Origin: Candidatus Desulfaltia bathyphila
Lineage (GTDB): Bacteria; Desulfobacterota; Desulfobacteria; Desulfobacterales; ETH-SRB1
NCBI GenBank assembly: GCA_014381545.1
Contig: JACNLL010000053.1
Location: 1-36,312 of the forward strand
DNA: 36,312 nucleotides
Direction of reading: 5' to 3'
The notes under the pieces are model-generated. The model ran no database searches, had not been told where the DNA came from, and worked only from the letters and a program-made list of their open reading frames with translations. The position numbers and the translations under genes are program-made. This document shows positions 2,027 through 27,955 of the stretch, one piece after another. Position 1 is the first letter of the stretch, and each line of letters begins with the position of its first letter.

Positions 2027-2866
2027 CTAATGTCCTGCAAGAAAGTTATCCATTTTGCGGATGATTTCTATGGCTGCCAGCCTTGCGGCTATTTCCACGG
2101 GGTTTTTATTTATTTTTTCGATATAGTAATCTGCGCTCATGGACATTACAGCGCCCATAAGATTTGCCGGACCGCCCATAGCGCTTGACATCTGCAAGCT
2201 TTTGGACAGTAGAGTAAACATCGTCCAGTCAAGTTTCACCGGAGAGTTAAGAAGCTTGCCGTATTGTCTTACATCTCCCTTCCATATGATGGTTTGTTTT
2301 CGATCAACTACCATAACATCGGACAAAACAATCTCGGACTCCCAATAATTGCCGGAGGATCCCAAGCCTTCAAAAGCTCCACGCAATCCCCGGCCATATG
2401 TGTTTAATTCAATCGACGATATGGCGCCGCTGATCTTTAAGTCGGCCATTTCAGCATTCTTTTGTATTTTTGCCTCCGGAAGGTTCAGTTTATCCGAATG
2501 CTCCGGCAATACAATGACTTTCAGGCCTCTGCGAATGAATTCATCAATAAAGGCGTATCTGACTACATTTTTCAGATCACCATAAAGGGCGGCTTTCTGA
2601 TAATCAGAAAGTCCGAATATCCATGGCTGTCTGACCTGTAGAAGCCCCTCATAATGCCCTCCTGAGATGGACGTGCGACTTACGTCGAAAGGTTCAACGG
2701 TAATCTCAACACTCCTTGATTTTTCAGATAGAACTATCGGTGAAGCAGGAAGTACGGTTTGCGGATGAGAACGGGTAACTCCCATCTTGGCGGCGGCACA
2801 GCCACTGAGATATAGAATTATAAACAGGTAAAAGAAGAGTTGAGAAATTTTATTTGAATGATACAT
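2027..2866 (-). CDS. Putative outer-membrane lipoprotein of unknown function
   Basis: The N-terminus is a lipoprotein signal peptide: a short basic start, a hydrophobic stretch, and the lipobox LSGC with the lipidated cysteine near residue 23. The mature domain is about 255 aa with alternating beta-rich stretches (VEITVEPFDV, LKISGAISSIEL). It loosely recalls auxiliary lipoproteins of envelope transport or assembly systems, but I do not recognise a family. It lies 51 bp downstream of thrS on the same strand, so it may be read from the same transcript. A GAGACCTTTG repeat lies in the gap. Function is unknown. Confidence 0.75.
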   Translation of the reverse strand: MYHSNKISQLFFYLFIILYLSGCAAAKMGVTRSHPQTVLPASPIVLSEKSRSVEITVEPFDVSRTSISGGHYEGLLQVRQPWIFGLSDYQKAALYGDLKNVVRYAFIDEFIRRGLKVIVLPEHSDKLNLPEAKIQKNAEMADLKISGAISSIELNTYGRGLRGAFEGLGSSGNYWESEIVLSDVMVVDRKQTIIWKGDVRQYGKLLNSPVKLDWTMFTLLSKSLQMSSAMGGPANLMGAVMSMSADYYIEKINKNPVEIAARLAAIEIIRKMDNFLAGH

Positions 2867-2887
2867 CCCTTATAACGATACTCCGTT

Positions 2888-2904
2888 AGAGACCTTTGAA
2901 AAAC
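2888..2904 (+). repeat. GAGACCTTTGAAAA-family short repeat (copy 1)
   Basis: A 17-bp AGAGACCTTTGAAAAAC segment lies between thrS and the lipoprotein gene. The same core occurs at 15333, 20155 (variant), 25067 and 33613 in this window, twice as an inverted pair. This copy is a single arm. Confidence 0.7.
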
Positions 2905-2917
2905 ATTAAGCTTCTTT

Positions 2918-4828
2918 TTAGAATATTTGCAGATCTGATCTTCTTTCCTTAACATGTGTAAGTGCTCTGTTTAAAAACTCCTCCATGCCGACCCCATATC
3001 TGACATTGCCATCCAATGTTCTAACCGAAAGAGCGCCTGATTCCTTTTCCTTTTTCCCGATAGTCAGTATAAGGGGAATTTTATTTACCTGAGCCTCTCG
3101 AATCTTTTTGTTCAGGCTTTCCGTCCTGCTGTCTAATTCTGCGCGCAGTCCTGCTTTTGCAAGAGTTGTCATTACTTCATTTGCATAAGGGATAAGGTCA
3201 TCATTTATCGGCAGTATGATTACCTGCACCGGCGTCATCCATAATGGAAACTTCCCTGCAAAGTGTTCGATCAAAATACCGAAAAACCTCTCAATAGAAC
3301 CGTAAATTACTCTGTGGATCATAAGGGGACGCTTCTTTTCATTCTTCTTGTCAATATATGTAAGATCGAACCTTTCAGGCAGCGCCATATCCAGTTGTAT
3401 GGTTCCGCACTGCCAAGTGCGGCCAAGCGCGTCCTTAATGTGAACATCTATCTTTGGCCCGTAAAAAGCGCCGTCCCCTTCATTTATTTTATAATCCCTG
3501 CCGTAAATCTTGAGAGCAGACTTTAAGCCTTCTGTAGCAACCTCCCATTGTTTGTCCGTGCCGATAGATTTTTCAGGACGCGTTGAAAGCTCTATATGAA
3601 AACCAAGTCCGAAAGTACTGTAAATGCGTTCTACCAGTCTAAACACACCAAGGATTTCATCTTCGATCTGGGCCGGCGTCATGAAAATGTGCGCATCATC
3701 CTGATGAAGAGCCCTGACTCTAAACAGGCCTGATAAAACACCGCTCAATTCGTGCCGGTGAACAAGTCCGATTTCAGCGACACGGACCGGCAAATCTTTG
3801 TATGAACGGGGTTTTACGTCATAAAAAAGCATCCCGCCCGGGCAATTCATAGGTTTAATGACATATTCTGTTTCATCCACTATGGATGTGTACATATTTT
3901 CGCGGTAGTTTTCCCAGTGGCCGCTTTTTTCCCATAGGCTGCGGGAAAGCATGACAGGGGTCTTTATTTCAATATAACCCGCTGCTCTGTGTTCGGAGCG
4001 CCAGTAATCTATCAGAGATCTCCATATAACAAGCCCCTTTGGGTGAAAAAAAGGCATTCCAGGAGCTTCGTCATGAAAACTGAAGAGATCCATTGCCACG
4101 CCGATTTTTCGATGGTTCCTCTTTTTTGCCTCTTCCAGAAAATCCAGATATGCCTTCAGCTCTTTTTTGCTGAAAAAGGCGGTGCCGTAAATTCTCTGGA
4201 GTTGCTGCTTTGTCTGATCAGCGCGCCAGTAAGCGCCTGAAACCTTCATAAGCTTTACTGCTTTGATAAATCCTGTATGGGGAATATGGGGGCCGCGGCA
4301 TAAATCTGTAAAATCTCCCTGTTCATACAGGGATATTGTCCCATCTTTTAGCTCTGAAATCATTTCCAGTTTATACGGCTCATTTATATAAAAATCCATT
4401 GCTTCGGATTTTGATACTTCTTTCCTTTTAAATGGAATCTTTGCCTTTATGATTTTTTTCATCTCAGCTTCAATTTTCGGGAAGTCCTCTTCAGAAACCG
4501 GCTTCATGTCAATATCGTAATAAAAACCGTTTTTCACAACAGGCCCTATCGTAAGCTTTGCTTCCGGGAAAATATGTAAAATCGCCTGAGCCATGACGTG
4601 CGCAGCGCTGTGACGAATAATTTCAAGCCCCTCACTATCTTTGCCGGTTATTAACCTTACAGGCGCGTCGCGGGTAATTTTCGTGCTTAAATCAACAATG
4701 ACCGAATCCAGCTCCATGGCTACGCAATTTCGCACAAAATCTTCCGAAATGCTCATCGCCACCTCAAAACCGGTGGGTATGTTGTCAAAGCTCTTTATAT
4801 TACCATCAGGAAATGTTATGTTTATCAT
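2918..4828 (-). CDS. thrS: Threonyl-tRNA synthetase
   Basis: This class II aminoacyl-tRNA synthetase charges tRNA-Thr with threonine. The 636-aa length is typical. Domains in order are an N-terminal TGS domain (about 1-60), an editing domain with the HSAAHVMAQA signature, the catalytic core, and a C-terminal anticodon-binding domain. Visible catalytic features are the zinc-ligand region MNCPGGM, the class II motif-2 arginine region FRVRALHQDDAH, and MIHRVIYGSIERF near motif 3. In many proteobacteria thrS is followed by infC-rpmI-rplT. Here it is followed only by a lipoprotein gene. No strong ribosome-binding site is visible upstream (GAGAG about nine bases before the ATG). Confidence 0.98.
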   Translation of the reverse strand: MINITFPDGNIKSFDNIPTGFEVAMSISEDFVRNCVAMELDSVIVDLSTKITRDAPVRLITGKDSEGLEIIRHSAAHVMAQAILHIFPEAKLTIGPVVKNGFYYDIDMKPVSEEDFPKIEAEMKKIIKAKIPFKRKEVSKSEAMDFYINEPYKLEMISELKDGTISLYEQGDFTDLCRGPHIPHTGFIKAVKLMKVSGAYWRADQTKQQLQRIYGTAFFSKKELKAYLDFLEEAKKRNHRKIGVAMDLFSFHDEAPGMPFFHPKGLVIWRSLIDYWRSEHRAAGYIEIKTPVMLSRSLWEKSGHWENYRENMYTSIVDETEYVIKPMNCPGGMLFYDVKPRSYKDLPVRVAEIGLVHRHELSGVLSGLFRVRALHQDDAHIFMTPAQIEDEILGVFRLVERIYSTFGLGFHIELSTRPEKSIGTDKQWEVATEGLKSALKIYGRDYKINEGDGAFYGPKIDVHIKDALGRTWQCGTIQLDMALPERFDLTYIDKKNEKKRPLMIHRVIYGSIERFFGILIEHFAGKFPLWMTPVQVIILPINDDLIPYANEVMTTLAKAGLRAELDSRTESLNKKIREAQVNKIPLILTIGKKEKESGALSVRTLDGNVRYGVGMEEFLNRALTHVKERRSDLQIF

Positions 4829-5255
4829 AATATGCTCTCAACAATATTTTTACCGCTAACCCAAAGATAAAAAAATCCTTCGTGCTTCGTGGTAATTAAT
4901 AATAAAAGCGCCTAACTTAATGCCATTGAATAAAGGTATTAAGTTAGTCTTTTGAAACAAATCGACTTCAAACGAGCTTCAGGTATAATTAAATTTTATA
5001 CTGGAAACTGTTTAAGTGGATTAGGGATCGTTATGAAAGAACCATAAGCGATTTTATTTAAAAATGAAACATTTTATTAAAACAAAAACCTTTATTAATA
5101 GCCCCGGCAGGTTCTTTCATTACGAACCGTTATCCGCGAGTTTTTTCAGTAGAAAATTTAATTATACCTGAAGCGGTAATATTTTTAAAAATCTAAAGCA
5201 TTACGAATGAAATATAAATATTTATGAAAATCAGCCCTGCAGGTCAAGGATAAAA
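4829..5255. other. 427-bp intergenic region between thrS and rnd, filled with repeats
   Basis: This divergent gap contains a degenerate repeat at about 4851-4897, with ACCGCTAACCC and CTTCGTGCTTCGTGGT, of the CGCAAAG/CACGAAG type also seen at 7745 and 15963. Beyond it is a 199-bp inverted-repeat element (4976-5174). Promoters for thrS and rnd must lie in or beside these repeats, but I cannot point to convincing -35/-10 pairs. Confidence 0.5.
4976..5174. repeat. 199-bp MITE-like inverted-repeat element, copy 1
   Basis: The ends at 4976-4997 and 5153-5174 are perfect 22-bp inverted repeats of each other (starting GCTTCAGGTATAATT). A second, imperfect pair lies inside: GAAAGAACC near 5035-5043 against GGTTCTTTC near 5110-5118. 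A related element of exactly the same length lies at 11615-11813. No open reading frame is present, so it would be non-autonomous if mobile. The single strand could fold into a long interrupted hairpin. I see no convincing target-site duplication. Confidence 0.8.
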
Positions 5256-6404
5256 ATGAAAAATTACGACAGCTTAAATTATCAAATTATAAATACTCCA
5301 TCTAAGCTCGAAGATATCGCTCTTCTCTTGAAAAAGGAAAAAACCATTGCTGTTGATCTGGAAGCAGACTCTATGTTCCATTTTAAGGAAAAAGTATGTC
5401 TTGTTCAGATAGCGGCAAAAAGAATAAATGTAGTCATAGATACTTTGCAGATCAAAGACCTTTCTTTGCTTAAACCCTTCTTTGAAAATCGTGATATAAA
5501 AAAAATATTCCACGGGGCAGATTATGATGTTCGCTCTCTATACAGGGATTTTCGCATAAAAATAAACAATCTGTTTGATACCCAGCTTGCATGCATGTTC
5601 CTTGGCATCAAGGGAACCGGCCTTGACGCGGTTCTTCAGCAAAGGTTCAATGTAAAGCTTAATAAAAGATTTCAGAAAAAAGACTGGTCAAAAAGGCCCC
5701 TGCCCGATGAAATGGTAAGATATGCTGCCTGCGATGTAATCTATCTTCTCCCTTTAGCCTCAATACTCGAAAAAGAGCTTGCTGAAAAAGGACGTCTTTC
5801 CTGGGTATATGAAGAATGCGCAATTTTAAGCAAAGTAAGACCTCCTGCATTAAATAGCGACCCATTATATTTAAAGCTTAAAGGAGCGGGGCGGTTAAAC
5901 CGGAGATACCTTGCTGTTCTTGAACATCTTCTTCAGTCTCGCCGAAAAATTGCAAAAAAGAAAGATAAACCCCTGTTTAAGATTTTCTCTAATAACTCAA
6001 TGATAAAACTTGCTGAGGCACAACCGGTAAATTTGCAGCAATTAAAAAAATCAAATACATTAAGTGCCAGGCAAATCGACATGTATGGTAATGTCCTAGT
6101 AGAGGCAATAAATAAGGCTTTGAATATACCTGAAAACAAGCTTCCGGTTTATCCCCGCGGCAAGGCTCCTGTAAAAAAACCTGAAGTTGAGGAAAGGGCA
6201 AAAGGTCTTAAAAACTGGAGAGATAAAAAGGCTAAAATTCTTGAAATAAATCCTTCGCTGGTGTTAACCAACGCAATGATAAACACTCTTGCCATCCACA
6301 ACCCGCTCGATAAAAGCGACGTTGAAAGAATTAAGGAGCTAAAGAACTGGCAAAAAAAGGAATTCGGAGAAGATATAACCGGGGTTTTAAGAAAGATAAA
6401 ATAG
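5256..6404 (+). CDS. rnd: Ribonuclease D
   Basis: This is a 3'-5' exoribonuclease of the DEDD family that trims the 3' ends of tRNA precursors and other stable RNAs. The Exo I motif is AVDLEADSM, with D34 and E36. Exo II lies in FHGADYDVRSL, and Exo III is YAACDVIYLLPL, of the DEDDy type. An HRDC-like RNA-binding domain (LAVLEHLLQSRRKIA and onwards) follows at about 215-290, then a second C-terminal helical region. The length of 382 aa matches the family. The ATG is preceded by AAGGA. It converges on the DUF401 permease gene, with only six bases between the two stop codons. Confidence 0.96.
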   Translation: MKNYDSLNYQIINTPSKLEDIALLLKKEKTIAVDLEADSMFHFKEKVCLVQIAAKRINVVIDTLQIKDLSLLKPFFENRDIKKIFHGADYDVRSLYRDFRIKINNLFDTQLACMFLGIKGTGLDAVLQQRFNVKLNKRFQKKDWSKRPLPDEMVRYAACDVIYLLPLASILEKELAEKGRLSWVYEECAILSKVRPPALNSDPLYLKLKGAGRLNRRYLAVLEHLLQSRRKIAKKKDKPLFKIFSNNSMIKLAEAQPVNLQQLKKSNTLSARQIDMYGNVLVEAINKALNIPENKLPVYPRGKAPVKKPEVEERAKGLKNWRDKKAKILEINPSLVLTNAMINTLAIHNPLDKSDVERIKELKNWQKKEFGEDITGVLRKIK

Positions 6405-18018: not shown

Positions 18019-19188
18019 TTGAAAAGGCAAACAGATCTTCCTTTAAAATTTAAAAAGGCCGAAGAGGCTCAGGCATCTTCCGCAGGTCTTGCTTTATTGG
18101 GTGAATTTTGCATCGGCCTTGGCGTGCTGGATTGGGTTGACGCTTATATGCCGAAATCGGGCAGGGGCACACATTTTAAGGCCAGCGAATATCTTTTCCC
18201 ATTGGTATTAATGCTAAATGGCGGGGGCCGCAGCCTGGAAGATATAAGGATTATACGGCATAATTCTATGCTGAGGGATATATTGCCGCTGAAAAGAGTT
18301 CCCTCGCCTGATGCAATCGGGGACTGGTTAAGAAGAACGGCTGATAGCGGAAGGCTGTCCGGGCTTGAGAAGACAAACAGAAAATTTTTAAAGCGAGCGC
18401 TGGAATATGATGATATAAAAAACTATACGTTAAATATAGATGCCACCGTAATAGAGGCTGAAAAAGAATCGGCAAAGCCGACATATAAAGGATTTAAAGG
18501 CTACACGCCTATTATCGGCCATCTGGCGGAAAACGGTTTGATAGTTAGCGAAGAGTTCCGTGAAGGAAATGTGGACCCTGCTTTAAAAAATCTTGAGTTT
18601 TTCAGGCATTGTATAGACCGGATGCCGGCAGGCAAAAGCATAAGGCGGCTAAGAGCCTGCCCCCCTTCTTGCCAGGTCGATATAATAGACTTTTGTAACA
18701 AAAAAGGTGTTGAGTTTGCCATAGGCGGCAATTTTGATGAGGCTATGCTGCGGGCAATCGGCTTTATCCCCGAATCTGACTGGAAACCTCACAGGGAAGG
18801 ATATATAGCGGAAACAGCCTTCTCATTTATCGGAACAAAGAAGACTTTTCGAACAATAGTATTGCAAAAGAACTATCAGAAAAAACTGTTCAATAAAGAG
18901 GATGTCAAATCGAAATATTCGGCAATAGCCACAAACATCAAGGGCTCTGCCAAAGATGTTTTTAAATGGTATAATCAGGAATGTGCAAGCAGCAATAATC
19001 GCATTAATGATCTGAAAGTTTGTTTTGGCATGGAAAGAATGCCTTGCGGCCAAGCCGGCGCAAACGCTGTTTTTTTTAGAATCGGCGTAATATCTTACAA
19101 CATCAACCGATTGTTTTTACTCAAAACTTCAGGCAAATCATCGCATAAGCGCCGGATACATTCACTGATACCTTTCAAAAAACGGTAA
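18019..19188 (+). mobile_element. IS1380-family transposase, probably catalytically dead
   Basis: The 389-aa frame follows the IS1380 pattern throughout: NIDATVIEAEKESAKPTYKG, YTPIIGHLAENGLIVSEEFR, IAETAFSFIG and the C-terminal FGMERMPCGQAGANAVFFRIG. Two of the three DDE residues appear lost. The usual RADSAAYQ motif reads RACPPSCQ (near residue 217), removing the second Asp. The usual SENRIKELK reads SNNRINDLK (near residue 331), removing the Glu. There are no stops or frameshifts. The start is a TTG within GGGGTCAAATTG. I could not define terminal inverted repeats. This looks like a fossil IS decayed by missense change, or a domesticated protein. Confidence 0.88.
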
Positions 19189-19307: not shown

Positions 19308-19451
19308 AGAACATCCCAGAGGCTCGTTGTGGATATGCTCAACGCAAAGTATGGTTTTTCATTGACCGGTGATGATATTGCTTCTCTGGGACAACGGGTC
19401 CTTAAAATGGGAAAGGAACGTCCATGCAGGATGATTTCATCTCCGCCCTGA
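19308..19451 (+). pseudogene. C-terminal fragment of an aldehyde:ferredoxin oxidoreductase
   Basis: The frame reads VVDMLNAKYGFSLTGDDI, then ASLGQRVLKM, matching the last helical part of tungsten-dependent aldehyde ferredoxin oxidoreductases (typically MLNAKYGWNLT...LGK.VLKMEREFN). The usual EREFN continuation is replaced by unrelated residues before a TGA at 19449. Nothing upstream belongs to the enzyme, so only about 30 residues survive. The end overlaps the start of the next gene. Confidence 0.6.
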
Positions 19452-20140
19452 CCCTGGAGGTCAAAGAGGAGGTTATTCAGAATTATCTTTATGAAAGGCG
19501 GTTGGTAGAAGAACAGATTCACTATGCTGAGGAATTGGCGGATCATGCCGCCCAACTGCAGGAGATGCTCTTTGGTCGCTTTGCGCGCATGTATGATTTG
19601 CTCTTTGAGACCGGGTTTATTAACAAATTCGTGAACATTCTTGGGTTGAAGGAACCTCCTTTTAGTGATCGGATCGGCAAAGACTCAAAATACCGAAAAG
19701 ATGTCCGGCTTATCAAGGTACACGGCCTAACCGACCGGACCAGATTCAAGAAGCTAACCTTAGAGGCATACCGAAGACTGGTTACACGGAATGATAACTA
19801 TAAGGAAGCTCACGAAGATCTTAAAGAGGAATGCAAGGCTGTAAACACCAATCTGGCAAAATTTGAAAAAAACCACGATCTGCTTACCATTCTGAACTTC
19901 TTGAAGAGTATGGATGTTGGAGAGACTGTAAAAAAGCACTTTATGGGCGAAAATTTTACTCCCGAAGAACTTGGCGCAGTTGAAAAAAGCCTTCATTTTA
20001 AACCCGTCCGAATCGAGCAATTCAATCTCATCGAGCCACCGCAGCTTCCCGATCCGGATACTGTTCAGAGAGAGCTTGGCGCTCTGGCAAACTCAGTCTA
20101 TGCTAAATGCAGCAACAAGATAAAAGAGCTGATCAAATAA
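19424..20140 (+). CDS. Uncharacterised helical (coiled-coil) protein
   Basis: This is a 238-aa cytoplasmic protein with no signal peptide or membrane segment. Charged helical stretches at about 10-50 (KEEVIQNYLYERRLVEEQ) and 110-150 (EAHEDLKEECKAVNTNL) suggest coiled coils. GRFARMYDLLFETGFINKFV forms a more hydrophobic core. The ATG has a strong GGAAAGGA site. It follows the tail of an aldehyde oxidoreductase gene, so it may once have been its downstream partner. I do not recognise the family and propose no function. The good ribosome-binding site and full-length frame argue that it is a real gene. Confidence 0.6.
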   Translation: MQDDFISALTLEVKEEVIQNYLYERRLVEEQIHYAEELADHAAQLQEMLFGRFARMYDLLFETGFINKFVNILGLKEPPFSDRIGKDSKYRKDVRLIKVHGLTDRTRFKKLTLEAYRRLVTRNDNYKEAHEDLKEECKAVNTNLAKFEKNHDLLTILNFLKSMDVGETVKKHFMGENFTPEELGAVEKSLHFKPVRIEQFNLIEPPQLPDPDTVQRELGALANSVYAKCSNKIKELIK

Positions 20141-20154
20141 AACCATATCACACT

Positions 20155-20190
20155 GAGATCTTTGCATAACCGCTGTTTTGCAAAGGTCTC
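20155..20190. repeat. GAGACCTTTG-family inverted pair at the amrS 3' end
   Basis: GAGATCTTTGCA (20155-20166) faces TGCAAAGGTCTC (20179-20190), 11 of 12 positions complementary with a 12-nt loop. It lies between two converging genes and contains part of the TGA stop of the radical SAM gene. It could act as a bidirectional transcription barrier, but there is no T-tract. Confidence 0.75.
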
Positions 20191-21370
20191 ACACCCATAC
20201 GCCGGGGATAACGGTATTGCAAAACTTGCATTTATTTCCTGCAAGATTATAAATGGGAATTAAATACCCTTTTCTTTCAACCAATAATTTTCTGCAATTA
20301 TGGCAATAGGTATTATTGCCTTCATGACCGGGCACATTGCCCACATATACATAACGGATCCCCTCATGCATGGCCAATTCACGGAAGCGTGTCAAGGTAG
20401 ATATCGGAGTCGGCGACAGCCTGTCTAATTTGTATCTGGGGAAAAATCGTAAAAAATGCAACGGATAATCAGGGCCGAGATTTTTGAGTATCCATCCGCA
20501 CATCCTTTTAGCCATATCAGTATCATCGACATATCCCGGAACCACCAGGTTTGTCACCTCAAAATGAACCCCCTGTTCATGCAGAGTCTTAAATGTGTTT
20601 AAGACCGGCTCCAGCCGCCCGCCGTTTAATTTTCTGTAAACCACGTCGCTGTATGCTTTCAGGTTGACATTGGCTGCATCCAGAACCTTGCACAGCTCCA
20701 GCAGCGGTTTCCGGTTAATGTAGCCGTTTGAAATCCACAGATTATACAGCCCATTTTCACGGACCATACGGGCAATGTCGATCATGTATTCAAAAAATGT
20801 GGTTGGCTCGGAATATGTATATGCTATTGATTTGGCCCCGGCACGCTTTGCCTCAATCACAACCTCCGGCGGGAAAAGCTCAACATGGCGCACCTGCCAG
20901 GGTTTTACCTGGGAAATTTCCCAGTTTTGACAGTTCAAACAGCGGAAATTGCAACCTGTGGCAGCAAGGGAAAATGCCCTTGATTTTGGTTTAAAATGGA
21001 AAAGAGGTTTTTTCTCTATGGGATCGACATGCACGCTGCAGGGGTTACCGTAGGCCAGGCTGTATAATGTTCCATCAATATTAACTTTACTGCGGCAGAC
21101 GCTTAAATCACCCGGCGCCAGAACGCATCTATTGGGGCAAATGCCGCATGCCACCCTGTTTTCTTTTAACTTTGTATAAAAAAGACCTTCGTGAGACCAT
21201 TTCCATAGTTTTGCAGGCGCATCCCCTTTAAAAATCTTGCCGCGGATATCAAAAAATCGGGAAGCCTCGCTATCTGTTCCCGTAAGAGGCCAAAAGGGAC
21301 GAAAAGGCATGGTGGTTGAAAGAACGGCCGCACTACAATATAGAAATTGACGTCTGCTTATTTTTTTCAT
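20189..21370 (-). CDS. amrS: AmmeMemoRadiSam system radical SAM protein, with Tat signal
   Basis: The 393-aa protein belongs to the radical SAM family that accompanies MEMO and AMMECR1 proteins; the reaction is not established to my knowledge. It starts with a twin-arginine signal, KKISRRQFLYCSAAV, implying export of a folded Fe-S protein. An N-terminal cysteine group (CGICPNRCVLAPGDLSVC) precedes the SAM cluster motif CNFRCLNC (C-x3-C-x2-C), then the barrel (YTYSEPTTFFEY, LWISNGYINRKPL, NVNLKAYSD). The C-terminus has two CxxC pairs (CHNC and CKFC), perhaps for a metal. It overlaps the upstream membrane gene by 38 bases, so the two are co-translated. The symbol follows the system name. Confidence 0.9.
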   Translation of the reverse strand: MKKISRRQFLYCSAAVLSTTMPFRPFWPLTGTDSEASRFFDIRGKIFKGDAPAKLWKWSHEGLFYTKLKENRVACGICPNRCVLAPGDLSVCRSKVNIDGTLYSLAYGNPCSVHVDPIEKKPLFHFKPKSRAFSLAATGCNFRCLNCQNWEISQVKPWQVRHVELFPPEVVIEAKRAGAKSIAYTYSEPTTFFEYMIDIARMVRENGLYNLWISNGYINRKPLLELCKVLDAANVNLKAYSDVVYRKLNGGRLEPVLNTFKTLHEQGVHFEVTNLVVPGYVDDTDMAKRMCGWILKNLGPDYPLHFLRFFPRYKLDRLSPTPISTLTRFRELAMHEGIRYVYVGNVPGHEGNNTYCHNCRKLLVERKGYLIPIYNLAGNKCKFCNTVIPGVWV

Positions 21371-23465
21371 GTCCTGTCGCCATAATAGTTAAGCTTGTTA
21401 GTTTCAGGCCGATTAATCCTGCCGTGGCCCATACAATGCCAAGATATGGAATAAGCGCCACGCTGGTGAACAGGGTGCCGAAGGCCGCGCCTATCAGATC
21501 GGCGGAAAAGGCTCGTGTCACCACACTATTATCACCACCCCTTAAACGAAGAGCAACCGGAAATTGGAAACCGCATATCAAAGAAATCACAAATCCAAAC
21601 ACAAGGAAAGAGGCAACCGGCAACCGGTCTCCGCCATACTTCATGGCCAGGATAAAAAGCCCCAAAAGGCTGATCAGCAGGCTGTCTGTAATTATCAGCA
21701 TCTGTTTCCCACGGCCACGCAGTTTTTCACCAAACCAGGCGCCGGGCAACAGACCGGCTAAAAAAACGGTTATGATCAGGCCTATCTGAAAATAAATATA
21801 ACCGAAAAAAATCTGAAAAGCAAAGATAACCAGGATTTCGCTGCCCATGGTCATGCAGCCGGTTGAAAAGAGAACAAACTCTTCTGCCCTGATACGAAAC
21901 ATATATACTAAAAGCAAAATTGCCAGGCCGACGATGAATCGATTCGGAGATGTGGAGAATTTTGAAAACCACTGTGAAAACACCAATCGCATCAACTGGG
22001 GGGATTCGTCGATGTTTTTAGGGGCGGCGGGATCGAGCAGATTGTTTAATCCTGCTATTCTTCCATTTGTCATATTGCCGTAATAAAAGCCGCTGATATA
22101 AGAGGTCTGAATCCCTTTTTCGAGAAGACAAGCAGGAATATCTGTCCTGATCGGGCGGTTGCCGCACAAAAAAAAGATTCTTTGCCCCGGCAGCAGCAAA
22201 ACATGGTCAAAATGCTCTGACACGGTATTATACAGGGAAGAGATCTTCCGGCGCTGGGTTTCGGCAAGGTAGCTGTCAAACCCCTGCACTGAAAAACTTA
22301 ATATTCCTGAGGCTGTAAGATGTTGCTTTGCCAGAGCAAAAAAGCGGTCTGTAAAAAACCGGTTTATTTGAAAGGTTTCAGGTTCAGGCAGATTAACTAT
22401 TATAGCATCATAGATTTCATCAGTTTTCATCAGATATGCTCTGGCATCTTGATGAATGACGTGTAAACCCGGAATATCCTTTATCAGGCCGAACCTGAAC
22501 AAAGCAGAGCTAACCTCTGGATCAAGCTCAACGTAATCTATGCGTGCAGGCCGGTATTTTTGCAATTCTTCCAACATCCCGCCTTGAGCCGAAATTATCA
22601 GAATTTTTTGTGGATTGGTTGATTGTGACAAAGGATAATGAATCGTTTCTTCCGCCATGGTCAGGTTCTGGTTGCTAAACACAGGTGTGCCGTCCATAAA
22701 CAGAGTGAACTGCTCCTTATCTTTATAGACGGTTATGCGGCCGTATCGGGATTCGCGATAATATACTGGTTCGCCTTTGAAGGTGGCAAGTGATGCAGGC
22801 TCCATAAAAATACCGGTTAGAAGAAGTGTAAGAGCCAGCCCCGTGCCGATAAAAGCGGCAGGATGATGCCGTCGTATGGAGGTAAACAGAAAACAGGTTG
22901 CCGCCAACAGCGGCAGGTTGGCCAGAAAAACCGCTTGCAGAGGAGTTACAAGATACACCAGTATAAATGAAAACAGGGCGCCGCCCGCCACATCACCGAT
23001 ATTGTCTGTCATATATATAAGCGCCCCGGGATAATCCGGCTTTTCAAGCCTGAGCACAAAGAGGCTATACGGAAGGACAAAGCCTAACAGCAGTCCATAA
23101 GGGGCAATTGTAATAAAAGTATATGCCAGGGTGGGATAAAATCCGACTGAACTGCCGTGAATAAAAAAATAATCACGCAGCACGCGGATAGCCATGATTT
23201 GTAAAGCCGGAAGACAGGCCAGACAAAAGGAAAGCCAACCAAGCCGGTTGGCTGTAGCTTGCCAAAAGCCTTTAATTGCCAGATGAGCCAGAAGGGTGCC
23301 GATCCCGCCGATAATAAGCCAGTTGAAAAGAACCAGAGCAATGACAAACTCGTTTCCCTGGAATTGAGCCAGAAATTCGCGGATGATCAATAGTTGAGTT
23401 ACCACAGAAGAAATGCCTGTGGCGATGACAACCAGAGTTATGGCTCGTTCACTTTTTCTCTTCAA
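21333..23465 (-). CDS. Polytopic membrane protein with spermidine-synthase-like domain
   Basis: This is a 710-aa fusion. Roughly 200 N-terminal residues form about six membrane helices. The middle, about 230-460, is a Rossmann methyltransferase/aminopropyltransferase-like domain (ILIISAQGGMLEEL, IDYVELDPEVSS, YDAIIVNLPEPETFQINRFF). The remainder holds another five to seven helices resembling the transporter-like half of such fusions. The canonical GGGDG nucleotide loop is degenerate (SAQGGMLEE), so catalysis is uncertain. It overlaps the MEMO-AMMECR1 gene by 17 bases upstream and amrS by 38 downstream, which ties it to the AmmeMemoRadiSam cluster. It might bring substrate to or across the membrane for the exported enzymes; that is inference. 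Confidence 0.88.
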   Translation of the reverse strand: MKRKSERAITLVVIATGISSVVTQLLIIREFLAQFQGNEFVIALVLFNWLIIGGIGTLLAHLAIKGFWQATANRLGWLSFCLACLPALQIMAIRVLRDYFFIHGSSVGFYPTLAYTFITIAPYGLLLGFVLPYSLFVLRLEKPDYPGALIYMTDNIGDVAGGALFSFILVYLVTPLQAVFLANLPLLAATCFLFTSIRRHHPAAFIGTGLALTLLLTGIFMEPASLATFKGEPVYYRESRYGRITVYKDKEQFTLFMDGTPVFSNQNLTMAEETIHYPLSQSTNPQKILIISAQGGMLEELQKYRPARIDYVELDPEVSSALFRFGLIKDIPGLHVIHQDARAYLMKTDEIYDAIIVNLPEPETFQINRFFTDRFFALAKQHLTASGILSFSVQGFDSYLAETQRRKISSLYNTVSEHFDHVLLLPGQRIFFLCGNRPIRTDIPACLLEKGIQTSYISGFYYGNMTNGRIAGLNNLLDPAAPKNIDESPQLMRLVFSQWFSKFSTSPNRFIVGLAILLLVYMFRIRAEEFVLFSTGCMTMGSEILVIFAFQIFFGYIYFQIGLIITVFLAGLLPGAWFGEKLRGRGKQMLIITDSLLISLLGLFILAMKYGGDRLPVASFLVFGFVISLICGFQFPVALRLRGGDNSVVTRAFSADLIGAAFGTLFTSVALIPYLGIVWATAGLIGLKLTSLTIMATGHEKNKQTSISIL

Positions 23466-24942
23466 AATATTGAACCTGGTAAGTCGATATCTTCAGCCGG
23501 GTGTTTTTCCATGCATCAGCCGACAGGCCGGCCTTTACGCACAAATGGGAAAGAAAGTTTTCCGGCCGTGGAAGCTGTTCCCAGACCTGGGGTAAAAATG
23601 TGGCTCCGGCCCGCCCTTTTTTAAGAATAACTCCGTCAACATTGACCCTCAGCTTTGATATCAAATCCACGCTATCAATGTATTCGAGAGGCTGCGGATT
23701 AGTCAGGATGCTGATTTCTATGTCCACATCTTCTATTTCTTCAACAGTTACAGGAGAGAAACGAGGATCATGAAATGCAGCATTGACAGCATTGCGCTTT
23801 ACCCCGTCAACAATCGATTCTTCCGCTGCCAGGCTTCCGATGCAACCACGCAAATTACCGGCAATCTTAAGGGTTACAAAGGTGCCGCGGCGAGCCTTAA
23901 GCACTTCGTCCTTAACGGCGGCAGCCACCAAATCCGATTCTTTACCGGAAATTTTCAATCCCAGTCTTTGCATAATGGTTTGCCTGGCGAGTTTAACCAG
24001 AGCCTGTCCAAGTTGCGGATTAATTTGCTGAGAATTATGTTTTTTTTGCATAGATGACTCTCCATAAAATGCGATTGCCGCATAACCGACAACCTGTGAA
24101 TGTCCTCCGGCAGTGTCCCCGCTGTTTGAATAATGAAGAAGAACCGGTTCCCAGCCATAGCGAGTAGCCATGTTGAGCGCAATAAGAATCGGTATCTTGC
24201 CGCAAGCGCGATTATCTTTTTTTAAAAGATCCTTTGATTGAAGATTTAAAATCATACTTATGGTTTCTTTATCTCTCTCCACGGCTTCCTGATATGGAAG
24301 AAAGTGAGACAGATCAGAACTGACAACCAGCAGAGTGTTTTGGTCGAGCATTGGATCTATGGCCGCAGCAAGCTGCTTGACATCACCCCTGCCCACGACG
24401 ATCGGTATAACCTCGAATTTATTCAGATAGCGCTGAAGAAACGGCAGAACAACCTCCAATGAATGTTCAACCCTGTCAGAGGCTGGAATAGATTGAAACA
24501 GATCGGAACTTGCGCGCAATTTTACTGCATCATTATTCAGCCTGACAAGACCGAGCGGGGTTTCATAGGCCTCTGCATTGCTGATTGCCCCGTTATTAAA
24601 ACCGACCCTATGATCCGGCCCTATTAAAATAACCCTGTCAAACAGATTTTTTCTTAATACCAGAGAGGCATGAGCTGCCGTAAGCCCGGAATAAATATAC
24701 CCTGCATGAGGCAGTATCAGGGCCTTAATCTGCTTATTAGGAGGGATTTGAATAGGGGTCTGTTTTGCCTGAAAAGTCAAGCTGTCAATAGTCTGCTCCA
24801 ATTCAGACCGTGAAGCTGGATAGAAGGACCCCGCCCACACAGCCTTACGGATACCGGCAGCACAGGCGTTTTGGGCTGGCGGTATAAATACAAAATAGCC
24901 AGCCAAAAGAATTGATAATATATAACTGAAAAACTGTTTCAT
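23449..24942 (-). CDS. Secreted MEMO-AMMECR1 fusion protein (AmrB-AmrA)
   Basis: This 497-aa protein starts with a Sec signal peptide (hydrophobic residues 5-28, cleavage near NACAA). The MEMO domain (about 30-290) is related to LigB-type dioxygenases and has LILPHAGYIYSG, ILIGPDHRVGF, VVSSDLSHFLPY and SGDTAGGHSQVVGYAA. The His and Asp residues in these motifs match predicted metal ligands. The AMMECR1 domain (about 310-495) has the hallmark NLRGCIGSL, DPRFSPVTVEEI and RAGATFLPQVWEQLP. The fusion and the Tat signal on AmrS place the whole set outside the cytoplasm. The ATG lies only 4 nt from the CCA end of tRNA-Val and has no ribosome-binding site. Function of the system is unknown to me. 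Confidence 0.92.
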   Translation of the reverse strand: MKQFFSYILSILLAGYFVFIPPAQNACAAGIRKAVWAGSFYPASRSELEQTIDSLTFQAKQTPIQIPPNKQIKALILPHAGYIYSGLTAAHASLVLRKNLFDRVILIGPDHRVGFNNGAISNAEAYETPLGLVRLNNDAVKLRASSDLFQSIPASDRVEHSLEVVLPFLQRYLNKFEVIPIVVGRGDVKQLAAAIDPMLDQNTLLVVSSDLSHFLPYQEAVERDKETISMILNLQSKDLLKKDNRACGKIPILIALNMATRYGWEPVLLHYSNSGDTAGGHSQVVGYAAIAFYGESSMQKKHNSQQINPQLGQALVKLARQTIMQRLGLKISGKESDLVAAAVKDEVLKARRGTFVTLKIAGNLRGCIGSLAAEESIVDGVKRNAVNAAFHDPRFSPVTVEEIEDVDIEISILTNPQPLEYIDSVDLISKLRVNVDGVILKKGRAGATFLPQVWEQLPRPENFLSHLCVKAGLSADAWKNTRLKISTYQVQYFEEKK

Positions 24943-25727: not shown

Positions 25728-26957
25728 CTATTCTGACGGTATAAGTTCAATCCTTAAACGATTTTGCGACACTTCATATATATTAATGCCAAACGAATCA
25801 AAGGCCTTAAGCATTAGAGCATCTGCAAGCTCCTTGGCATTTCCTTGAAAATCAACGGAAAGTACAGCTTCATCAAGCCTCATCTCTTTAAGCTGAACAC
25901 GATTTACGCCTGATATATCATTTAAGATTTTGCGAAACTGTACAAAGTTTGCAAAATTAGCTGTTCCCTTAACAACGAGTTCAATATTAACAAGCTTCTT
26001 TATTTCTTTCCGCCATTCCTCAAGTATTTGCGAAGAGAGGTCTTTGCCGGCAAGGGCTCCTGCATCTGAAAGCGCAGCCCTGCCGCCTGCAACCTCATCC
26101 ACATTGGTAGAGACAGCTGTTTGCAAGGCAAAGGCAATTTCTTCGCCGGTGTCTGCCCTGAATGCCCGTACCGTTACAGCCCCTTTGAATGACTTTATAT
26201 TTTTGCCCATAATATTAGGCGCTTTACTTGCAATAGCTTTGCCGACTATTACCACATCCGCATTAACTCGGACTCCGAGTTCAACAGCTTCCTGATGATC
26301 TAATTCAGGCTCTAAGCTTAAAATCTCAACAGCTTCCTGATGATCTAATTCGTCTAAAGTTTCATTTCTCAAATTTTGCGCCAGATTTTTATAATTAATT
26401 ATCAAAAAACCCTTTTTCATCATTACGCCGGCCATGCTGTTTTCCGCAACGCTTTTAACTGCAGACATACCTTCTCCCCACCAGTATTGGGGCAAACTAT
26501 CTTCAGTGCTTTGTTCTGCAATGAAAAAGAGAACCCGCGGCATAGACTTTTTGCCTATCATAATTCCTGCAATTGAAAGCTGCTGCTGAACCTTCTCAAT
26601 CGAAACAGTTGCCTGAACCATTACCCTGTAAGTATTTCCGGACAACGCTTCTGTCAGCACCTTGTATCCTTGAACAAATTCTTCGGTATTACTATATAGA
26701 ATGTTATTTATAACTTGAAAATTCTGAACCAGAGACTCAAGCGGCAGAAAATCTTTTACAACATTTTCTATCGCTGAGACCAGACTGTTGGAAATTGCCC
26801 GGTTCCGCGCAACAGCGACATTATCAGCGTATATTCTACCTGTTCCTATGACCAAAACCACGCTGTGCGTAGCATGTAACTGCTCTTCAGCCTGAACGCC
26901 CACTGACAGCGCTAATAGAAAAAGAACAAACAGCGATATTTGTTTTGCTGATCTCAT
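25728..26957 (-). CDS. Secreted FlgT-like protein of unknown function
   Basis: The 409-aa protein has a Sec signal peptide (ISLFVLFLLALSVGVQAEE). Residues 30-130 resemble the FlgT N-terminal fold found in flagellar assembly protein T and many unassigned deltaproteobacterial proteins (IGTGRIYADNVAVARNRAI). The C-terminal part has alternating helices and strands (IELVVKGTANFANFVQFRKI). Near residues 210-230 the segment LDHQEAVE occurs twice, 15 residues apart, from a 45-bp in-frame direct duplication. A periplasmic or envelope role is likely; involvement in motility is unproven, since no flagellar genes are nearby. Confidence 0.75.
   Translation of the reverse strand: MRSAKQISLFVLFLLALSVGVQAEEQLHATHSVVLVIGTGRIYADNVAVARNRAISNSLVSAIENVVKDFLPLESLVQNFQVINNILYSNTEEFVQGYKVLTEALSGNTYRVMVQATVSIEKVQQQLSIAGIMIGKKSMPRVLFFIAEQSTEDSLPQYWWGEGMSAVKSVAENSMAGVMMKKGFLIINYKNLAQNLRNETLDELDHQEAVEILSLEPELDHQEAVELGVRVNADVVIVGKAIASKAPNIMGKNIKSFKGAVTVRAFRADTGEEIAFALQTAVSTNVDEVAGGRAALSDAGALAGKDLSSQILEEWRKEIKKLVNIELVVKGTANFANFVQFRKILNDISGVNRVQLKEMRLDEAVLSVDFQGNAKELADALMLKAFDSFGINIYEVSQNRLRIELIPSE
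26281..26351. repeat. In-frame direct repeat, 26-bp identical units 45 bp apart
   Basis: The sequence beginning TCAACAGCTTCCTGATGATC is present identically at 26281-26306 and 26326-26351. It duplicates 15 codons within the FlgT-like gene without shifting the frame, consistent with a recent slippage or tandem-duplication event. Confidence 0.85.
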
Positions 26958-26959
26958 TT

Positions 26960-27955
26960 TTAATACTTCCGGGCCAGCGCGTAATCGGCAATATTTATAA
27001 GTAGTTCCCTTGTTTCTGAAGGCTTAAAAACCCCGACAAGAGCCTTCTTTGCTTTGGCAATATGTTTTGCCGCCAACTCTTCAGTATATTTAAGCCCCTT
27101 GTATTTATTTAACAGTTCTAATAAGATTTCAAACTCGTCAGCGGAAAAATCCTTATTTTTTATTATTTTCTCCATCATGGCCAGATCTTTTGAATCAGCC
27201 TTTGAATCAGCCTTCTTTAATGCATATATGAGCGGTAGAGTCAACTTTCCCTCTTTAAGGTCCGCGCCTGCCTCCTTTCCAAGAATACCGGCATTAGATG
27301 TGTAATCGAGAAGATCATCAATCATCTGGAAAGCAATCCCAAAGTTGAAACCATAATCTGATATGGCTTTTTCTTCTTTTTCCGTGGCATCTGCGATAAC
27401 GGCGCTTACCTGACACGCGCCCTTAAAAAGGATAGCTGTCTTATTCTGGATAATTTCCATATACTCTTCTTCAGATAGATCCAGCTGCCCCTTTCTCATA
27501 AGCTGGTGGATCTCCCCCTGAGACATATTTTCTGTAATTTCCGAAATAATTTTGATGACATTAAGGTGTCCTGTATCAGCCGCAATTGAAAGAGCCCGCG
27601 CAAGAAGGAAATCGCCCACAAGAACCGCTATCGAATTGCCCCATATTGAATGGGCTACAGGTTTGCCCCTGCGAAGTGTTGCCTCGTCCACAAGATCGTC
27701 ATGCAAAAGTGTAGCAGCATGAAGATATTCAAACATAATCGAAAAGGTCTTGTCGAAGTTGCTCTTATAACCGCATATTCTGGCGGAAAGTACCATAAGC
27801 AAAGGCCTTAGTCTCTTGCCGCCGGCAAACAGTATATGACTCGCTGTCTGAGAAACCACATCAAGATACGGATTTAAATTCTGCTTAAGGGCAATCTCAA
27901 TATCTTCAAGGTCGTGTTTTGCTGAAGCTAATATCCTGTTTTTGAGGTCGCTCAT
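26960..27955 (-). CDS. Trans-polyprenyl diphosphate synthase (IspB type)
   Basis: It elongates isoprenoid diphosphates for the side chain of respiratory quinones. The first aspartate-rich motif is in LLHDDLVDEATLRRG and the second in FQMIDDLLDYTSNAG; both DDxxD-type motifs are intact in a 331-aa protein. KLTLPLIYAL follows as usual. Residues near 260 contain the small repeat ADSKADSK. It overlaps rimO by four bases (ATGA), implying coupled translation. Chain length cannot be told from sequence. Confidence 0.93.
   Translation of the reverse strand: MSDLKNRILASAKHDLEDIEIALKQNLNPYLDVVSQTASHILFAGGKRLRPLLMVLSARICGYKSNFDKTFSIMFEYLHAATLLHDDLVDEATLRRGKPVAHSIWGNSIAVLVGDFLLARALSIAADTGHLNVIKIISEITENMSQGEIHQLMRKGQLDLSEEEYMEIIQNKTAILFKGACQVSAVIADATEKEEKAISDYGFNFGIAFQMIDDLLDYTSNAGILGKEAGADLKEGKLTLPLIYALKKADSKADSKDLAMMEKIIKNKDFSADEFEILLELLNKYKGLKYTEELAAKHIAKAKKALVGVFKPSETRELLINIADYALARKY

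Follow-up and report, generated by a model that had tools for sequence, protein, structure and literature searches.

A probably extracytoplasmic variant of the AmmeMemoRadiSam system with a predicted MFS-type partner carrying a SpeE-fold domain in Candidatus Desulfaltia bathyphila

Here we describe a three-gene operon in a 36,312-nucleotide stretch of DNA (hereafter, the window) from Candidatus Desulfaltia bathyphila (contig JACNLL010000053.1). The operon encodes a MEMO–AMMECR1 fusion protein with a Sec-type signal peptide, a membrane protein of predicted major facilitator superfamily (MFS) type with an inserted spermidine synthase (SpeE)-fold domain, and AmrS, the radical S-adenosylmethionine (SAM) enzyme of the AmmeMemoRadiSam system, with a signal of the twin-arginine translocation (Tat) type. 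Most plausibly, the module is an exported form of the known system whose transporter-type partner would supply SAM or a nucleoside. Localization outside the cytoplasm is well supported, and we consider it very probable that the module is extracytoplasmic; that the MFS–SpeE protein passes SAM or a SAM-derived nucleoside to AmrS there is a reading to which we give just under an even chance, and the SAM supply itself is something that we infer. SAM and low-potential electrons are thought of as cytosolic, and we know of no radical SAM enzyme that works outside the cytoplasm; among the literature matches listed, no title named an extracytoplasmic one. If the module does work outside, this would imply an MFS-type SAM carrier and an electron route, and the association with one transporter, joined in relatives by flavin mononucleotide (FMN) and Fe–S proteins, would offer a handle on the reaction of MEMO and AMMECR1, both of which are also present in humans.

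The three genes lie on the minus strand at 20189–24942 and overlap one another in the order MEMO–AMMECR1, SpeE-like gene, AmrS; the open reading frames match the span of the original prediction exactly, and the Sec-type signal, the membrane protein, and the Tat-type signal that it had proposed are borne out by the sequence. Each of the three proteins has a signal-like N-terminus or transmembrane helices. Throughout, a protein is called signed if its N-terminus was judged signal-like by eye, motif, and hydropathy, with no trained predictor. The N-terminus of the MEMO–AMMECR1 fusion reads …FFSYILSILLAGYFVFIPPAQNACAA (by eye and motif). As in known AmmeMemoRadiSam systems, all three domains exceed their curated cut-offs (AmrS with TIGR04337, 332.6 bits against 220; MEMO with TIGR04336, 234.9 against 26; AMMECR1 with TIGR04335, 197.2 against 99), and the CxxxCxxC motif of AmrS is kept. 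The window system differs, however, in that MEMO and AMMECR1 are fused and signed, AmrS bears a Tat signal, and an MFS–SpeE gene sits in the operon, while unsigned counterparts coexist elsewhere in the source genome (2.07 Mb in 107 contigs): a second, unsigned AmrS above the cut-off (C101) and a second, unsigned MEMO (C100). The only AMMECR1 match in that genome is the window's own. TatC is encoded in the source genome and was found in all six genomes checked.

Relatives were collected by a scan with 25 SpeE-like proteins, which gave 517 loci, the best 80 of them being compared (L labels denote loci of relatives; G labels, sampled genomes); most of the 80 have Desulfobacterales, Desulfobacteraceae, or Deltaproteobacteria in their titles. 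The nearest, in Desulfobacterales, include L189 (92% identity), L175 (91%), and L176 from Candidatus Desulfaltia (88%). The SpeE-like gene has AmrS as a neighbour in 74 of the 80 loci, and MEMO and/or AMMECR1 in 73; the next commonest neighbour family reaches 16, and a wider conserved operon was rejected on the ground that no family beyond the three genes exceeds that number. Since independent genomes share this order together with signals of the same kinds, the arrangement reflects more than chance. The 74 AmrS proteins carry the Tat motif as RR (64) or as RK/KR (9), the sole one without it (L215) having a 311-residue frame; in L206, L228, and L233 the first start of the AmrS frame falls inside the SpeE-like gene. 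Four of the six loci without AmrS (L186, L202, L220, and L240) end at a contig edge, and L185 and L213 do not.

The comparison was extended to AmrS proteins at large, which score above the cut-off in 364 of 395 genomes of a phylum sample. One hundred AmrS places, drawn from the best scores only and with the first 20 picked by hand, so that the sample is not random, yielded 101 genes: 39 signed (L110 by eye), 56 unsigned, four unsigned in a sister clade, and two cut. A simple Tat search had missed L110 and the RK/KR variants, which were reclassed by eye and with a wider motif. Within 4 kb of AmrS, a SpeE-like gene is found for 13 of the 39 signed, none of the 56 unsigned, and one of the four sister-clade proteins; in 40 loci chosen by their SpeE-like gene, the corresponding counts are 27 of 31 signed and 4 of 4 unsigned. 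At the genome level, where a match was defined as E ≤ 1e-20 (138 of 395 genomes), a SpeE-like match is present in 49 of 53 genomes with signed AmrS versus 5 of 36 without, among 89 sampled genomes (Fisher p 1.6e-14, with kinship ignored). Thirty-nine of these 89 genomes were classed as signed at once, and 47 of the other 50 were rechecked through their AmrS match lists; the remaining three, G000, G031, and G134, were classed as signed through the AmrS of the window, L171, and L141. Nine of the 69 recheck matches had no locus of their own: one was covered by L132, one (G125) was a fragment, one (G035) was under the cut-off with a 550-codon frame, and six had frames (310 to 359 codons) barely long enough to include a signal. 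The SpeE-like gene, which had been put forward as a fourth component, is thus a conserved partner of signed AmrS (74 of 80 loci; 49 of 53 versus 5 of 36 genomes), and the neighbourhood comparison that had been proposed as a check shows it conserved beside signed AmrS, with the signals present in close homologues.

The division between signed and unsigned AmrS follows the phylogeny. In an IQ-TREE tree of 149 AmrS proteins (85 signed and 64 unsigned), which left out rows cut by contig ends and AmrS matches shorter than 280 residues and sampled L175–L254 at every sixth locus, a single change accounts for the distribution of signals, compared with a mean of 48.3 after shuffling and with none of 500 shuffles as low; the sister class was defined after this tree had been inspected. 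The CxxxCxxC cysteines (C140, C144, and C147) are kept in 149 of 149 rows, signed and unsigned, window included, and the cluster cysteines are retained in 83 to 85 of the 85 signed proteins. Three further cysteines, C111, C227, and C291, occur in 75, 61, and 74 of the 85 signed proteins versus 12, 4, and 5 of the 64 unsigned, and these extra residues could possibly serve as disulfides or ligands outside the cytoplasm. A second AmrS-like gene adjoins signed AmrS in L052, L063, L065, L072, L076, L079, L092, L095, and L128; that of L076 (6695–7855) has its own TRRDFIKG-type signal and scores 23.2 bits with TIGR04337.

Every relative's MEMO whose N-terminus is uncut has a hydrophobic stretch there (61 of 61), and H79, H111, D210, H213, and C247 of the MEMO domain are invariant in 62 of 62 exported rows. 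By order and spacing, the first four would correspond to H49, H81, D189, and H192, given as the metal pocket of human Memo1 in the accessible part of PMC9477392; for Cys244 of human Memo1, no counterpart was established in the window MEMO domain. In one subclade MEMO lies outside the operon; eight of the 80 loci are of this type, each with an AMMECR1 that stands by itself and has a hydrophobic N-terminus. Fourteen genomes without an operon MEMO (loci L143–L156) were searched further, and since 12 of them encode a signal-like MEMO elsewhere, signed MEMO is mostly kept despite the lost linkage; of the remaining two, G003 has no MEMO match and G368 a distant match only. The start of AMMECR1 in L211 is unclear.

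The SpeE-like protein was modelled with AlphaFold2 from 54 aligned sequences (alignment A2; a second alignment, A1, holds 25 SpeE-like sequences). The model (mean predicted local distance difference test score 85.6; predicted template-modelling score 0.84) has 14 helices, a number adopted in place of the 12 given by a greedy helix caller. Its membrane part is predicted to have the MFS transporter fold, matching SLC37A4 (Z 31.2, root-mean-square deviation 3.3 over 345 residues), NorA (Z 28.8), and NarK (Z 28.5). This match comes from one predicted model, in which the best MFS chain stood 27th in Foldseek and the high Z scores came from a second aligner. A sequence search of the PDB with the 710-residue protein returned relatives of the SpeE domain, METTL13, and weak, chance-like matches, and none for the membrane part. 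We infer that the two helix halves are to be read as 6+1 and 1+6, with the SpeE-fold domain flanked by two additional helices, an arrangement known from 14-helix MFS proteins. Lys plus Arg average 2.25 per inner loop versus 0.57 per outer loop, with the same bias in 54 of 54 rows, and by the positive-inside rule the SpeE-fold domain is therefore predicted to lie outside.

The SpeE-fold domain of the model aligns with the aminopropyltransferase 1uir (Z 26.5 over 265 residues), and METTL13 with bound S-adenosylhomocysteine (SAH) is another structural match. Spermidine synthases depend on a gate-loop Asp, which is N in the window protein. They also require D or E in the GxG(D/E)G motif, according to the accessible part of PMC10349129, and the window protein has Q at that position. 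By this alignment, no row of A1 or A2 has both acids together; the gate Asp is replaced by N, S, C, or H in 46 of the 54 A2 rows, window included, and many near relatives of the window have an E adjoining GG with a one-residue deletion. Most rows of both alignments keep the ribose-binding VELD, D(G/A)R, and NRF[YF] motifs, the last as QxNRF[YF] after the gate, and the ribose-binding acid E313 is nearly invariant in A1 and invariant in A2. On this evidence, the domain appears to retain a nucleoside-binding face without aminopropyl chemistry.

Three other assignments of this protein have to be weighed against a carrier role. That it is an ordinary membrane-bound spermidine synthase merely sharing the operon would agree with its best curated matches, which are named polyamine aminopropyltransferase, and with the SpeE fold and VELD motif that it shares with PRK03612 and SpeE. 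Set against this, Pfam Spermine_synth covers residues 272–391 only (48.9 bits), the scores with NF002956 (PRK03612; 122.1 bits, cut-off 472) and TIGR00417 (SpeE; 51.7 bits, cut-off 249.55) are far below the thresholds, both key acids are replaced, a QxNRF[YF] motif follows the gate, and the gene is coupled to signed AmrS. Polyamine synthesis by the protein was ruled out on the replaced motif acids and the distant cut-offs, and we find this alternative scarcely credible; the spermidine-synthase reading accordingly falls away. The suggestion in the original prediction of a polyamine-like or SAM-derived substrate survives in part: the polyamine side is not supported, and a SAM-related substrate persists as the best guess, as either transporter cargo or ligand.

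The protein might instead be a periplasm-facing SAM-dependent transferase, such as a methyltransferase, that acts on the substrate or product of MEMO, AMMECR1, and AmrS while its transmembrane part serves as an anchor or imports its own SAM. A precedent is the fungal NHMT, which, in the accessible part of PMC10349129, combines seven transmembrane helices with a spermidine-synthase-like domain lacking the GxG(D/E)G acid, is located in the endoplasmic reticulum, and methylates secreted lytic polysaccharide monooxygenases; its seven-helix domain is found there in filamentous fungi, nearly all Pezizomycotina. The VELD and DGR/DAR motifs kept in most rows and the METTL13–SAH match point in the same direction. 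Unlike NHMT, however, the window protein has 14 helices and an MFS-like membrane part, a full two-bundle fold that exceeds what an anchor needs, and its gate Asp is among those replaced in most A2 rows; we judge a transferase rather unlikely. Alternatively, the MFS part could carry some other small molecule (a substrate or product of MEMO, AMMECR1, or AmrS), with the SpeE-fold domain as a nucleoside-binding sensor or gate. MFS matches span carriers of many cargo types and the aminopropyltransferase residues are lost, as this would have it, but the gene is coupled specifically to signed AmrS and not to AmrS at large, and its protein has kept the nucleoside-binding motifs; both points favour a SAM-type ligand, and we find another cargo distinctly unlikely. 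We therefore prefer, tentatively and with less than even confidence, the assignment of the MFS–SpeE protein as a SAM or nucleoside carrier.

As for electrons, some relatives encode candidate electron-transfer proteins next to AmrS. L066 (G386) encodes, at 2385–5951 on the minus strand, a 1189-residue SpeE-like MFS protein fused to FMN_bind (43.5 bits) and Fer4_5 (51.4 bits; cut-off 22 each), with an unsigned AmrS and a fused MEMO–AMMECR1 in the vicinity. A separate FMN_bind plus Fer4_5 protein lies just upstream of AmrS in L062 and L060, and in L059 the matches are confined to fragments of 77 and 220 residues. Five loci with signed AmrS and no SpeE-like gene within 4 kb (L039, L050, L053, L081, and L099) have a NapH-like protein upstream; that of L050, the only one of the five run against Pfam, gave Fer4_5 and other 4Fe-4S matches and no FMN_bind. 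In protein searches with few queries, a NapH-type or FMN_bind/Fer4_5-type protein was found by AmrS for 5 of 39 signed, 4 of 4 sister-clade, and 0 of 56 unsigned proteins (p 0.0099, signed versus unsigned), and a further one, in L157 outside that sample, is encoded on the strand opposite to AmrS at a distance of 1 kb. These neighbours resemble NosR/NapH/RnfG-type proteins in having FMN_bind and/or Fer4_5 beside or fused into the AmrS module, but those of L050, L062, and L066 score below the curated cut-offs for NosR, NapH, and RnfG, and the window operon itself contains no electron-transfer gene of this type. Flavinylated proteins deliver electrons to reactions outside the cytosol according to the accessible part of PMC8238504, which mentions neither AMMECR1 nor radical SAM. 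In five Tat-signed AmrS proteins (L071, 7728–8978; L098, 7491–8984; L115, 5195–6526; L277; and L279), a CxxCH motif between signal and core resembles a single c-type haem site and would fit periplasmic haem attachment; together with the FMN/4Fe-4S neighbours, it hints that signed AmrS meets electrons outside.

In the mechanism that we propose, AmrS would gain its Fe–S clusters in the cytosol, fold, and leave in folded form via Tat, whereas MEMO–AMMECR1 would leave via Sec and may bind metal outside. Through the MFS–SpeE protein, SAM or a nucleoside derived from it would cross the inner membrane and reach AmrS, or else the cleavage product would be removed, such that a once-cytosolic enzyme system would have been relocated and given supply lines for cofactor and electrons. 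The full form of this scheme is somewhat doubtful: radical SAM chemistry would run in the periplasm, a dedicated SAM carrier of the MFS type would feed it by passing SAM to its own SpeE-fold domain on the outside, and in some relatives transmembrane FMN/4Fe-4S conduits would feed it too.

A number of observations weigh against this interpretation. Neither SAM nor low-potential reductant is, to our knowledge, known in the periplasm. Four unsigned AmrS proteins (L160, L164, L165, and L167) have a SpeE-like gene 1.5 to 1.7 kb away on the other strand, and there is therefore no strict rule tying that gene to signed AmrS. Conversely, the genomes G374, G192, G392, and G041 have signed AmrS and no SpeE-like match at the threshold used, L185 and L213 have no adjoining AmrS despite 9 kb of room, and L158, L159, L162, L166, and L174, chosen by their SpeE-like gene, have room for AmrS and none in the stretch. 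In L195, L208, and L231, AMMECR1 is separate from MEMO and its adjacent copy lacks a clear signal, although a second AMMECR1 in L231 has a signal-like N-terminus. The branch dividing signed from unsigned AmrS has a support of only 69 in a tree rooted at its midpoint. The RK/KR form, a weaker Tat motif, replaces RR in the nine proteins noted above, with RK weakening the Tat case in one subclade, and the AmrS proteins of the sister clade (L059, L060, L062, and L066) have no visible signal, while the MEMO of L060, L062, and L066 and the AMMECR1 of L062 have signal- or anchor-like N-termini; because of this pairing, a combination of exported MEMO and cytosolic AmrS may exist. These last two points would also suit a model in which the twin-arginine-like segment is a mere membrane tether, with AmrS at the cytosolic face, supplied with SAM and ferredoxin, and only MEMO–AMMECR1 outside. 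As a general rule, however, where a hydrophobic segment comes after a positively charged N-terminus, the part of the protein downstream is expected to be outside, and the CxxCH motifs behind the Tat signal fit periplasmic haem attachment; a tether is, in our view, quite improbable, and an extracytoplasmic AmrS is the localization that we retain.

With respect to previous work, Burroughs and colleagues are said to have proposed, in 2019, a nucleotide-base or isoprenoid modification for Memo systems. No title in the literature searched dealt with this MFS–SpeE protein or with signed AmrS (the 2019 study fell outside that scope), and none with the function of NF037959 (MFS_SpdSyn), a family of fused MFS/spermidine synthase proteins. 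NF037959 has the same domain pair as the window protein, and L245 (55.8 bits), L171 (63), and L066 (50.4) pass its cut-off of 40, but the window protein (35.8), L173 (26.2), and L158 (39.8) fall below it (five relatives scanned). The accessible part of PMC7159879 cites Burroughs et al. 2019 (JBC 294:10211) for Memo–Ammecr1 systems, and in that of PMC10924467 a radical SAM gene is mentioned solely for its position next to others.

Table 1. Positions of the operon's genes, domains, and overlaps in the window
Feature	Position	Strand	Details
MEMO–AMMECR1 fusion protein	23449..24942	-	497 aa; first of three genes; open reading frame, family profiles, own-genome matches
Sec-type signal peptide of MEMO–AMMECR1	24856..24942	-	about residues 1–29; read from sequence
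MEMO domain	24067..24849	-	residues 32–292; profile match
AMMECR1 domain	23464..24003	-	residues 314–493; profile match
MFS-type membrane protein with inserted SpeE-fold domain	21333..23465	-	710 aa; TTG start; profiles and structural model
N-terminal seven transmembrane helices	22791..23456	-	residues 4–225; AlphaFold2 model, Lys plus Arg bias
SpeE-fold domain	21960..22772	-	residues 232–502; predicted periplasmic; gate-loop acid replaced by N, GxG(D/E)G acid by Q
C-terminal seven transmembrane helices	21375..21944	-	residues 508–697; AlphaFold2 model, Lys plus Arg bias
AmrS, AmmeMemoRadiSam radical SAM enzyme	20189..21370	-	393 aa; profile match
Twin-arginine-type signal of AmrS	21281..21370	-	about residues 1–30, SRRQFLYC then hydrophobic segment; by eye and motif
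AmrS radical SAM core	20192..21181	-	CxxxCxxC (C140, C144, C147) plus N- and C-terminal Cys clusters
Overlap of MEMO–AMMECR1 and MFS–SpeE genes	23449..23465	-	17 nt
Overlap of MFS–SpeE and AmrS genes	21333..21370	-	38 nt

Several features around the operon and its relatives may also be recorded. Past the AmrS end, at a distance of 1 kb, the window encodes an IS1380-family transposase (18019–19188; 219 bits, cut-off 180), and between the two lies a plus-strand open reading frame of 238 residues (19424–20140) with no Pfam or NCBIfam match at E 0.01. Upstream of the operon are a 409-residue protein (25728–26957) that weakly matches LipL46 of Leptospira (43.3 bits, cut-off 400) and a polyprenyl synthase gene (26960–27955). 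No polyprenyl synthase was seen among the 28 commonest neighbour families of the 80 loci, and in L043, L132, L164, L165, and L167 a gene recognized by eye as polyprenyl-synthase-like is no more than 4 kb away from an unsigned AmrS. Finally, L158 (8298–10460) and L159 (8315–10438) encode SpeE-like MFS proteins in the window's own order, with EAL-like and CheD-like neighbouring open reading frames by eye.

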